From: Leucosporidium creatinivorum | Taxonomy: Eukaryota; Basidiomycota; Microbotryomycetes; Leucosporidiales; Leucosporidiaceae | NCBI GenBank assembly: GCA_001600635.1 | Contig: BCKL01000018.1 | Location: 365,974-429,973, forward strand | DNA: 64,000 bases | Direction of reading: 5' to 3' | Shown: piece by piece, positions 3,001-12,605 of the stretch | How positions within the stretch are numbered: position 1 is the first letter of the stretch | Layout of the letters: every line of letters begins with the position of its first letter | Made by a program: the position numbers and the translations under genes | Notes under the pieces: generated by a model | Told to the model about the DNA's origin: nothing | Databases searched by the model: none | Seen by the model: the letters and a program-made list of their open reading frames with translations, nothing else

Positions 3001-6000
3001 TGAACGATGGCTTCAGACGCCGTGTCGAGAGCCGAGGTGGCTGCGAGGGCGAAGGGAGTCAGCGAGCCGTCTGTCAAGTGGCGCCGAGCAAGCTCACCCT
3101 CGTCGAGCAGAAGGATCTGAGGGTTTCCGACAATGGCACGGGCGATGGCGATCTGGAGCAGGAGGCTGGGTTAGTCTCGAGGGACGACGGAGAAATCGGA
3201 GGGACCGACTCGTTGCTTTTGACCACCCTGCGAAGCGGTAAGCGAGCTAGGTTAGCTTCCGCGATGCGTGGTGCAGCTAAGCCCCGAAGCACGACTTACC
3301 GAGAGGAGCATACCACGCTCTCCGATCAGAGTATCGTAGCCTTGGGGAAGCGCCTTGATGAAGCCGTCGGCGTTAGCCTCGGTGGCGGCCTGGACGATCC
3401 TCCTCCGCTTCTCCTCGGGCGACTCGTGCTCGTACTGAGTGCCGAACAGACCATGCTCGATGTTGCCGGCGACGGTGGTGGCGAAAAGGGTGGGCTCTTG
3501 CGAGACGAGACCGATCTGAGTGCGAAGCCAGCGAACGTTCAGGTCCTTGAGCTCGATGCCGTCGAGCTTGCAGCTGCCGCCGACGGGGTCGCTGGGAGGC
3601 GGGGAGGTGAGCAACGTCAGCTAGCCAGAGGGCTCAAGGGAGAGGCAGCTCACTAGAAGCGCTCGAGGAGGCCGATGATCGTCGACTTGCCGGATCCTGA
3701 ACCTCCGACGAGCTGCGAGAAGGCGCGCGCCGAGGTCAGCGACAGCTCGTCGATGGAGAGGAAACCAGCTCACAGCAGTCATCTTGCCCTTGGGGAAGAC
3801 AGCGTTAAACTTGTACAACACCTGAACGGCAGGTCGAGATGGGTAGATAAAGTCGACGTCCTTGAGCTCGATCACGCCGTCGACCGACTCGGGCTTGAGA
3901 CCATTCGGCGAGGCGGAGTCGATGACTGGCGTCCTGTCAATGGTGACGAAGATGGCAGAGGCGGCAGCGAGAGCATGGGCGATGGATCTGCGGGAGAGAG
4001 GAGCAACGAGGAGGAGGCGGGGCGGTCAGTATCGATCGACTTCGGCGTTCAAAGAGGTGCGCCCGAGCATCCATTACACATTCTCTGCGACGAGAAGTGG
4101 CAACGCCTTCGATAAGGAGAACTCACGTCATGCACGGGGTGAGCTCGGTGAGGGAGAAGGCGCCGATGACGATGGAGAAGAAACAGGTGATAACGTTGCC
4201 TGAGGTGCCGTGTCCCATGAGAATGAGGCTGCCTCCCCAGTAGAACGAGAGTGCGTAGGAGCTGTAGATGATGAAGAAGAAGAGGCCCATGCCGATGCCC
4301 ATCACGTTCGAAGACTTGATGCCGAGCTCAAGGCTGTCGGCGAGGGGAAATTGGCATCGATGGTCAGCCTGCGCCCTTCGACTCCTAAACCAACTGCACA
4401 GTCACTCACCAGCGAACGTTGTAGATGTCATAAAGGTCGGCGAGCTTCTTCTGGGTGCCGAAAGCGTGGGTGTTGCGAACGGAAGAGATGACCTCCTCGG
4501 CGAGCGTGGCGCCTTTGCCGGTCTCCTCGAGCATGTCGTTCTTGTAGCGAGCGAGGAAGAGGTCCATGGTCACTCCGGCGATTGCGATACAGGGGACTGA
4601 ATGAGTGGTGGGTCAACGACGGTTTCGCCGAGACGACGGCAGGGAAGAGCGAGCAGGTGGGAAGCAAGCTCACCGATGACACTGACGACGAGCGCCATCC
4701 TCCAGTTGACCACATAAGCCACGATGATTCCCGTGCAGAACATGGCGATGTACATGACGCTGCGAGAAGGGCGAAGGTCAGCTCAAGTCCACCGCCGAGC
4801 TCCCTTCTCGTCCATACTCACCTCATCGGGACCTTCTCGCTGATGCCGGCCTGGATGAGCGCCGTATCGGTCTCGATCTTGGTGGTGACAGCTCCTGCTC
4901 CGAGCGAATCGAAAAGGGCGATGTTTTGTCGGAGGACGGCCTTGAGGTAGTTCTCGCGGATGCGCCGAGTGCCGCTCTCGCCGGTCCACGACCAGGTGAA
5001 CATGTAGAGGTACGTAGCGACGACTATGAGGAAACAAGAGCGAGGTCAGTGAAGGTTTTGGCCGCGAGGGGAACGCCGAGCAGAGCTCGGTCGACTCAAT
5101 CCGACTCACACATGCCGATTCCTGAAGGAGAAGGAGTCAGCACATCTTTCATCGAGAAGATTGGAGACGACGTACCGATGTAGACGAGGTACAGCACATT
5201 CTTGGTGAGCTCTGCGTTGAGCGCATCGGAAGCTTGAGCGAGCCGAGCAGCTCCCTCGGGCGAGTTGTCGGCGGCTGCGACGGCCATGGAGTAGGAAGTG
5301 AATTGAGTAGTGAGGGATCCGAAGACTACCGTCATCAAGGGCTGAGCCACACCTGTAGCAGAGCACAGAGCATATTCAGCTCACGAGCGCTTGGCGAAGG
5401 GTTTCGGCGCGCAGGAGCTCACCAGCAACGATGGCCGCCAGAACGCCGATAACATTGAGCAGAAGTTCTGCTTTGTTGTGGAAGCGGAACAGCTGGGCGA
5501 AGGATGCAGGTTTCCTCTTCTCCAAGTAGACCTGAGATGCGAGATCGGAGCCGAGAACGGGAGATGGAGTGAGCACGCGGTCCGCTCTCTGAGCGACTCT
5601 GCAAGCACTCACCTGCTCAGCTACAATCCTACGTTGCTCAGCCGTCAAGCCAGCCATTTCCGGGTCATCCTCGGTCGCAATGACTGCCTCCTTGTCAGCC
5701 GAATTGCTGATCTTGTTGTTGCGAAGAGAGTCCTTTTCATCAAGAGTCGTCGAGGTGGAGAGGGCGGTGGCTGGGATACCGAGAAGTGCTCCTGGTACTG
5801 GTACAGAAGCAGCGGCGAGGGCGACAGGCTCGATCGTCGAGTTCGGGGTTGGCGAAGTGGAGCTGAGGTCGTGTGCGGAGAGAGGGGGAGAAGGCGAGTT
5901 GTAGGTAGCTGAGGAGGCCATGGTCCCGGGTCCTTCCTGTAGCTTGTTCTTGCTAGTCGAGTCGAGTGGCAGCTTGTACCGCTTGTCAAGAGGGAGAAGA

Positions 6001-6092
6001 GCGAGGCTGCAAGAGCTCGCAAGGTGGGTCAGCTCTGCCTGTCGCGCGCGCTTCTGAAGAGCCGGGTCGCTTGCTGAGCGTTTGAGGGCCAT
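1..6092 (-). CDS. Full-size ABCB (MDR/Pmd1/Ste6-type) ABC exporter, 3' end off the window
   Basis: Membrane ATP-driven exporter with TMD-NBD-TMD-NBD order, read right to left over many short introns. The N-terminal ~200 residues are Ser/Pro-rich and cytosolic. TMD1 follows from about 5500. NBD1 shows a Walker [10 protein letters not shown] near 3700, a Q-loop [11 protein letters not shown] near 3490, and [11 protein letters not shown] plus the H-loop IAHRLST at 2940-3110. TMD2 spans about 2530-1300. NBD2 has FRYPTRP near 850, Walker [10 protein letters not shown] near 690 and SQEPTLYAGS-like Q-loop near 500. Its signature helix [12 protein letters not shown] is at about 85-130; Walker B and the stop lie beyond base 1. 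The start is uncertain: ATG at 6092 gives an extra N-terminus, but a second in-frame ATG at 5921 (MASSATYNS) has a better context, and the DNA between them contains a branch-site-like GCTGACC followed by CAG. Substrate unknown: multidrug or lipopeptide pheromone export are both possible. Confidence 0.9.
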
Positions 6093-11019: not shown

Positions 11020-11647
11020 ATGTCCTCCGGAGGAAAGGGAAAGGCTGGAGCCTCGTCGTCTGAGAAGGCCCAATCCCGCTCGGCCAAGGCTGGTCTCCAG
11101 TTCCCCGTCGGACGTATCCACCGTCTCCTGCGCAAGGGAAACTACGCTCAGCGTGTCGGAGCCGGAGCCCCCGGTGAGTACTGGCCTACATCTCAACTTC
11201 TGCCGCCCTCAGACGCGTCGAGGCTCCCAATGTTTGTCGAGCAACTGCTGACTCTGTACGCTCTCCTACAGTCTACCTCGCCGCCGTCCTCGAGTACCTC
11301 TCCGCTGAGATCCTCGAGCTCGCTGGAAACGCCGCCCGCGACAACAAGAAGTCGCGCATCATCCCCCGTCACCTTCAGCTCGCCATCCGCGTACGTTCTC
11401 ATTCCTCGCCGTTCCGCATCACATAGGCTGACATTCTGCATTCTACTACAGAACGACGAGGAGCTCAACCGTCTCCTCGGACACGTCGTCATCTCCCAGG
11501 GTGGAGTCCTCCCCAACATCCACTCGGAGCTCCTTCCCCAGTACGTTCCTATCACGCTCCTCGCTCATCTTGAGCTTCGTCGCTGACCCTCGTCTCCACT
11601 CTCACAGGAAGTCGAAGAAGGATGGCAAGGCCTCGCAGGAGCTCTAA
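11020..11647 (+). CDS. HTA: Histone H2A (SQEL-tailed, H2A.X-like)
   Basis: Core histone in four exons (11020-11173, 11272-11390, 11452-11540, 11608-11647). It has the N-tail [40 protein letters not shown], the acidic patch region [20 protein letters not shown], and [20 protein letters not shown]. The tail KASQEL carries the SQ-E-hydrophobic motif phosphorylated by ATM/ATR-family kinases, so this is the damage-signalling H2A normal in fungi. The last exon and the end of intron 3 belong to inverted repeat R, so the 3' end exists twice in the window. Confidence 0.98.
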
Positions 11648-12605
11648 GCGTCTACCTACTAAAGGTCGGCCAAGAGGAAGGAAGGAAGGAAGGAGCAGCA
11701 ACGGAGGGACTTCGATTTTCTACCACCACGACACACTTTTACACTTTGTGTTATCTTTGACAATATGCTTTACTCGCGCCTTGGTGCGCTTCACCATCAT
11801 ACCTTGTCCCTGCCCGGTCTGCTGCGAATGAGAGGAGGGAGCTGAGAGCGACTGCTCGGCGCTGCTTCGGGATTCGGTCGACGACTGCATAGAGCTACAT
11901 CTACCTCTCAGCAAGACGAGGAGCTTCTCTCAAATCGCCACAAGCACACCGCTTTCATCGTGCAGCGAGCGAGCGCGACTCCACCCCTCGCCCTTCGCCT
12001 TTGGAGCGGCGCCGAGCAGCAAGTCTGGCGACTCCCTCTCTGCCGACTGCGCTCGTCGGGCGTCTGTCAGCGACAAGAGAGCTATTCACTTCACAACGCA
12101 AGCTCAGCTACAGGACAGCAGACTCTGCCACGTGACACTGTACCCTTCCTCAAGCGCGCGTAAGCTCTTCTCGGCGCTGGCTGCGAGGGGGACTTTGGCG
12201 GGAGTCTGGCTGTAAGCAGGTGAGTTTCGGGGGTACTCTAGGTGCAGCTCTTTGTTTATCTAGTCGCATCCNCACTTNTAAAGGTCACAAATGACTCGAT
12301 TACATCGCGCAGNTCCCATTTCGGTGGTGCCAGTCAAGAGCATGCTTCGGCTTCTCTCCACCCAGGCTTGCGNGAGAGGAGCANAATGACTCGCTGCACA
12401 GTCCGCAACATCAATTTCCANCACGGATCGACTCATCCCTGCAGCCCTAGCAGCATGCTGTAGCGCGCGGTGATGGCCCTCAAACGCTCAGCAAGCGACC
12501 CGGCTCTTCAGAAGCGCGCGCGACAGGCAGAGCTGACCCACCTTGCGAGCTCTTGCAGCCTCGCTCTTCTCCCNCTTGACAAGCGGTACAAGCTGCCACT
12601 CGACT
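11557..12605. repeat. Right copy of 1,049-bp inverted repeat R
   Basis: Mirror image of 5960-7008. It starts in H2A intron 3 and ends in sequence equivalent to the ABC exporter N-terminal region, where homology stops at CTCGACT. N characters at 12272, 12278, 12313, 12373, 12384 and 12421 mirror those on the left; a seventh N at 12574 corresponds to a defined base at 5991. Confidence 0.97.
12473..12605 (+). pseudogene. Orphan 5' fragment of the ABC exporter gene
   Basis: Repeats the first ~44 codons of the long-form ABC exporter ([15 protein letters not shown] onward to KLPLD). The frame meets TAG exactly at the repeat boundary, and no transporter sequence follows. If the real ABC start is the downstream one (5921), this is a duplicated promoter/5' UTR rather than a coding relic. 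No evidence that it is expressed. Confidence 0.85.

Follow-up and report, generated by a model that had tools for sequence, protein, structure and literature searches.

Genes of the core and inverted arms

The window analysed here, a stretch of 64,000 nucleotides with a G + C content of 59.5%, contains two inverted arms of 1,049 bases enclosing a core with a histone gene pair and a putative beta-lactamase-family gene. Gene structure and base composition suggest a fungal, probably basidiomycete, origin. The H2A gene (11020-11647, forward strand) is complete, with four predicted exons and 133 amino acids ending in SQEL, and its last exon is located in the right arm. The H2B gene (9936-10671, reverse strand) is also complete, with five predicted exons and 144 amino acids. 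Both genes splice into complete histones with matches to Pfam and to solved chains (among the best 60 of 212 chain matches for H2A and the best 60 of 71 for H2B). A 15-bp tandem repeat with 3.2 copies was observed at 10497-10544, in the H2B exon coding for the lysine/alanine/proline-rich N-terminal tail.

The third gene of the core (7578-9383, forward strand) was predicted by hand with seven exons, one of them only 8 bp long, resulting in 437 codons without a stop codon and an SxxK motif at residue 61. The frame of exon 1 matches the Pfam model PF00144 (E-value 6.3e-10), which represents a broad family of serine hydrolases, and no match to a related family could be found in Pfam for the unspliced frame 8462-9361. 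Based on the sequence of exon 1, the gene is putatively assigned to the beta-lactamase family; drug resistance is not claimed. A scan of viral contigs with a pattern of exon 1 returned 19 pattern matches and no relatives. The recognised genes of the core are this gene, H2B and H2A, with 7009-7574 lying outside the protein-family searches.

On the left, a gene on the reverse strand points away from the core (1476-6092, measured from the leftmost Pfam-matched piece to the first ATG). Five of its eight pieces match an ABC family with E-values up to 0.01, namely four PF00664 matches, two of which are at the curated cut-off, and one PF00005 match below its curated cut-off; the other three match nothing in Pfam. 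The N-terminal frame gave no Pfam match. As judged by its pieces, the gene is an ABC exporter.

The left arm (5960-7008, forward strand) contains the last H2A exon and a part of the last H2A intron, pointing left, together with intergenic DNA and the upstream and 5′ region of the ABC gene, and the right arm (11557-12605, reverse strand) is its inverted copy. The first-pass annotation had described an exact-length inverted repeat of 1,049 bp, and coordinates, orientation, absence of indels and the spacer of 4,548 bases all proved to be exact in the assembly. Of the 1,049 paired sites, 1,040 are called and equal, six are N in both arms, one is A against N (5991/12574) and two are called and different (6913/11652 and 6985/11580), which leaves at most nine sites that differ or possibly differ. 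The arms are thus almost free of substitutions, as had been claimed, with a likeness that may be overstated by the assembly. In a blastn self-comparison of the whole window, the arms matched each other with 1,858 bits, far above chance for 1 kb, and no further copy of the arm was detected in the window at E-values up to 1e-3, the next matches being 195 bp and shorter. A third copy elsewhere in the genome, outside the window, is possible, and before the event that produced the arms the segment would have been single-copy.

The arm ends are sharp, as the sequences beyond the outer end (226 bp) and the inner end (537 bp) show no similarity above that of shuffled sequences. At the outer junction (5949-5964 compared to 12601-12609), the motif AGTCG occurs twice on the left and once on the right behind a common GCT, a difference in copy number that possibly reflects a 5-bp slip at a break.

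On the H2A side, the arms carry the last exon (40 bp including the stop codon) and most of the last intron (51 of its 67 bp). As the arm begins 16 bases into this intron, the left copy of H2A consists of one 40-bp exon and intron sequence. On the ABC side, they include DNA upstream of the gene and no more than its first 44 codons, counted from the ATG at 6092. A later in-frame ATG at 5921 is located outside the arm; if translation starts there, the arm is devoid of ABC coding sequence and may contain only the ABC leader and promoter. The corresponding frame of the right arm (ATG at 12473) comprises at most 44 codons and ends at a stop codon across the junction. According to the junction positions, each arm connects the 3′ end of H2A with DNA upstream of ABC and, according to frames and splicing, each gene is whole only once, ABC on the left and H2A on the right, in agreement with the first-pass annotation. 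Its statement that transposon features are missing also stands as far as the letters of the arm ends can be judged by eye: no terminal motif was seen, nor a target-site copy at the outer junctions. A transposon with terminal inverted repeats was rejected on this basis and on that of the recognised core genes, none of which is a mobility gene.

Distribution of N and the assembly of the arms

The window contains 13 N, each of them single, and all 13 are located inside the arms, which account for 3.3% of the window; the first-pass annotation had overlooked this pattern. Twelve of them form six mirrored pairs across the arms, at least 184 bases from either arm edge. The two called differences are located 95 and 23 bases from the inner edge, and the A/N site is located 31 bases from the outer edge. 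This distribution may be that expected of a short-read consensus built on two real, slightly different copies, which can be separated near the edge but not deeper, because reads at the edge reach unique DNA. The A/N site, with its N on the right only 31 bases from the edge, fits this account less neatly.

As 12 of the 13 N are mirrored, the arms partly resemble one consensus used twice, and both their likeness and their lack of indels may therefore be overstated. Taken further, the same pattern could mean that the genome has only one 1,049-bp segment, to which the assembler added the other, or that a chimeric molecule was assembled, since the assembler or polisher made no distinction between the arms along most of their length. 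Such an artefact is nevertheless considered improbable: each arm end has two different unique neighbours, which one copy would not give, the sites 6913/11652 and 6985/11580 were called differently near the inner edge within reach of reads from unique DNA, and the relic beyond the right arm described below is an independent sign of rearrangement at this place. Two arm copies differing at about nine of 1,049 sites are presumed to exist. Indels between them may be hidden by the assembly. Flank and core may have been linked across each arm by paired reads or simply by a choice, and the orientation of the core depends on this link.

A relic of the core beside the right arm

Outside the right arm, a wrecked copy of the core was identified at 12832-13218 (387 bp), inverted relative to the core. 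It was absent from the first-pass annotation and shows that a duplication took place before the arms acquired their present state. The order of its pieces is that of the core, with the start of a beta-lactamase-family gene, the H2B 3′ flank and the H2B promoter side; the H2B coding region is gone. The start of the second beta-lactamase-family gene (13024-13218, reverse strand) matches 7575-7769 of the core with 73.8% identity, the downstream flank of H2B (12889-13023, reverse strand) matches 9777-9919 in a gapped alignment covering 129 of its 135 bases (13023-12895), and the promoter and 5′ leader side of H2B (12832-12888, reverse strand) matches 10713-10766 with 87.7%. The pieces are spaced within six bases of each other. 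Their scores of 516 (beta-lactamase), 190 (3′ flank) and 218 (promoter) exceed the maxima of 193, 134 and 128 reached in 200 dinucleotide shuffles per piece (mean of 102.7 for the piece scoring 190), and on the opposite strand they reached 144, 101 and 117. Two deletions would explain this arrangement, one removing the rest of the beta-lactamase-family gene and one removing the entire H2B coding region.

The comparison of the relic with the start of the core gene over 64 codons resulted in a Ks of 0.84 and a Ka of 0.21, and 32 of the 51 differences within the 195 bp are located at third codon positions. These values indicate that constraint acted on the two beta-lactamase-family genes during most of their divergence. 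Over its last 25 codons the relic is looser (Ks 0.68, Ka 0.35), SASK reads LAFK, the similarity stops after codon 64, and the relic's own frame of 86 amino acids matches no Pfam family. Due to the looser last 25 codons and the replacement of the SxxK serine by leucine, the relic copy is taken as dead.

Between the right arm and the relic lies a gap of 226 bp (12606-12831) with no similarity to the core or the left flank above that of shuffles; its score against the core was 158 with a shuffle maximum of 182. Against the H2A/H2B intergenic DNA trimmed of its promoter end it scored 58 (mean of 55.9 and maximum of 85 in 300 mononucleotide shuffles); when the promoter end was kept, a TATA-like stretch was aligned with a score of 62, a value given here without shuffle comparison. 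The DNA upstream of the two beta-lactamase copies is alike at chance level only (178; mean of 147 and maximum of 217 in 200 shuffles). To the right of the relic, 13219-13800 scored 258 against the core, about two standard deviations above the shuffles (mean 218.7, sd 20.0), and was dropped as a core match, the score being inside the shuffle range (maximum 279). A tblastn search of 1-5959, 7009-7574 and 12606-64000 for H2A and H2B remnants returned weak hits only, none of them within 12606-13218; the best was an H2A hit with an E-value of 0.043 and in-frame stops, about 6.8 kb right of the arm.

Further duplicated sequences were observed elsewhere in the window. Between 16487-17837 and 18736-20212, three blastn matches share order and orientation (68.1%, 68.6% and 87.2% identity), and these stretches are probably two diverged tandem gene copies, which would make a further old duplication to the right of the relic. 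The adjacent same-strand frames 42289-43230 and 44102-45076 (313 and 324 codons) look alike by eye, and each has a match to a leucine-rich-repeat Pfam model that falls well short of the cut-off.

Origin of the arms and orientation of the core

The favoured explanation, to which a probability of about 0.5 is given, invokes two events that differ in age. The first would be an old duplication, the second a more recent inversion, or inverted copying, that produced the arms. A block with the beta-lactamase-family gene and H2B, probably also with H2A, would have been duplicated long ago, and the 387-bp relic would be what decay has left of one copy. At a much later time, the working block would have been inverted, or a 1,049-bp piece copied backwards at its far end, through the repair of staggered breaks or through template switching, which would have placed the segment from the H2A 3′ end to the ABC start at both ends of the working block. 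One arm would then keep ABC with its upstream DNA and the other H2A with its 3′ end, so that each gene is whole once. While the arms, the whole genes, the relic with its order and the contrast in divergence are observed directly, order and mechanism of the events are what we infer from them, and the ancestral gene order is assumed.

The silent divergence of the relic is about 100 times the divergence of the arms (0.86% if all nine sites differ), in a comparison of coding with non-coding sites. Accordingly, the arms are either much younger than the duplication or have been homogenised. The same non-repetitive DNA was found inverted at both ends of the segment and nowhere else in the window. This layout, with each gene whole only once, counts for an inversion through staggered breaks, because it is the layout described for such inversions in flies. 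In the fixed inversions 2h and 2q of Drosophila mojavensis, the two ends of the inverted segment are reported to carry copies of the same non-repetitive DNA in opposite orientation; at one 2q breakpoint, the duplicated piece measures about 1 kb (PMC3355041). Older duplicates flank some breakpoints of that set, and four of 14 fly inversion breakpoints are given as lying between pre-existing duplicates (PMC3355041); at the present locus, the far break would have the working copy on one side and its old duplicate on the other. The polymorphic inversion O7 of Drosophila subobscura likewise has inverted duplications at its breakpoints, with an earlier duplication recorded at the same place, and template-switching repair is discussed there beside staggered breaks (PMC7584159). 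In contrast, the D. mojavensis inversions are of chromosome scale and were read against an uninverted relative (PMC3355041), and O7 is large and was studied with comparative data (PMC7584159), whereas the segment described here measures 4.5 kb and was read in a single window.

A contrast in age would also arise in a single event followed by gene conversion. A backward copy of the whole block (beta-lactamase-family gene, H2B, H2A and ABC start) would have been inserted into the last H2A intron of the original locus, the histone genes disrupted there would have decayed to the relic, and conversion would have kept the arms alike, with occasional flips. The left arm and the right flank can indeed be read as one locus in core order (ABC, H2A end, gap, H2B promoter side, H2B 3′ flank, beta-lactamase start), the homogenisation of such arms is documented in yeast (PMC9731477), and the middle of the arms contains a stretch of 619 bp with none of the nine differing or unresolved sites, as a conversion tract would. 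A gap of this length occurred in a fraction of 0.003 of 200,000 random placements of nine sites, although it was noticed after the fact and could also result from selection on regulatory DNA. However, this course of events requires that H2A exons 1-3 were additionally lost from the right flank, where none were found, and no similarity above shuffles continues beyond the arms for 226 bp outside or 537 bp inside. The sharp ends, together with a right flank in which no H2A exons were found, lean towards a young inversion, and the homogenised inverted insertion, a possible but less probable course, is placed behind the two-event account. As 12606-12831 is without a match and the relic contains no piece of H2A, the part of H2A in the old duplication is a guess in the two-event account.

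The first-pass annotation had further proposed that pairing of the arms could flip the 4.5-kb core, giving two orientation isomers. This is possible in principle, because the core is enclosed by inverted arms that are nearly identical and no gene is broken in either orientation, and on an evolutionary scale a flipping of the present core is plausible. If the flipped orientation is the true one, the two-event account reduces to a single inverted insertion of 1,049 bp beside the working block. The nearest parallel is the flip/flop region on chromosome XIV of Saccharomyces, in which near-identical inverted arms of host DNA also surround a core with a histone pair; the arms are homogenised in yeast and possibly here, and both orientations are possible (PMC9731477). 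The yeast arms measure 4.2 kb and contain gene pairs, the core of 24 kb carries H3/H4, and both orientations occur among strains (PMC9731477), while the present locus has 1-kb arms with gene ends, a 4.5-kb core with H2A/H2B and a single assembly. Near-identical inverted arms around a core were found here as well. In three of four herring inversions, flanking inverted duplications are reported and interpreted as substrates of recombination (PMC11499932). It is nonetheless rather doubtful that the H2A/H2B core toggles between orientations as an independent counterpart of the yeast region, with conversion-homogenised arms and the older block copy decayed alongside.

Still far less likely is a selected switch, in which the arms are kept so that a flip of the core alters the expression of the histones or of ABC. 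The near-identity of the arms would suit such a switch, and mating-type inversion between repeats is reported for the methylotrophic yeast Hansenula polymorpha (PMC4238957). But ABC and H2A border the same arm sequence in both orientations, so that neither an expression switch nor any function of the repeat is indicated, the core genes (beta-lactamase-family, H2B, H2A) include no recombinase, and the Saccharomyces region is stable in the laboratory, its orientation being reported as unchanged in about 53,800 mitoses and 950 meioses (PMC9731477).

No description of this locus could be found in a weak literature search, among the titles and abstract openings listed. The arrangement is most likely what an old duplication and a more recent inversion have left behind, and comparable cases are known from flies and yeasts. 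The placement of N illustrates that such letters in a draft genome can expose unresolved copies of a repeat. The locus provides a compact case of a core histone pair that persists while its surroundings are duplicated and rearranged, and beside which part of the block can still be read in an older copy. Should the two orientations be present in cultures or strains, it would represent a further fungal flip/flop region bearing histone genes besides that of Saccharomyces.
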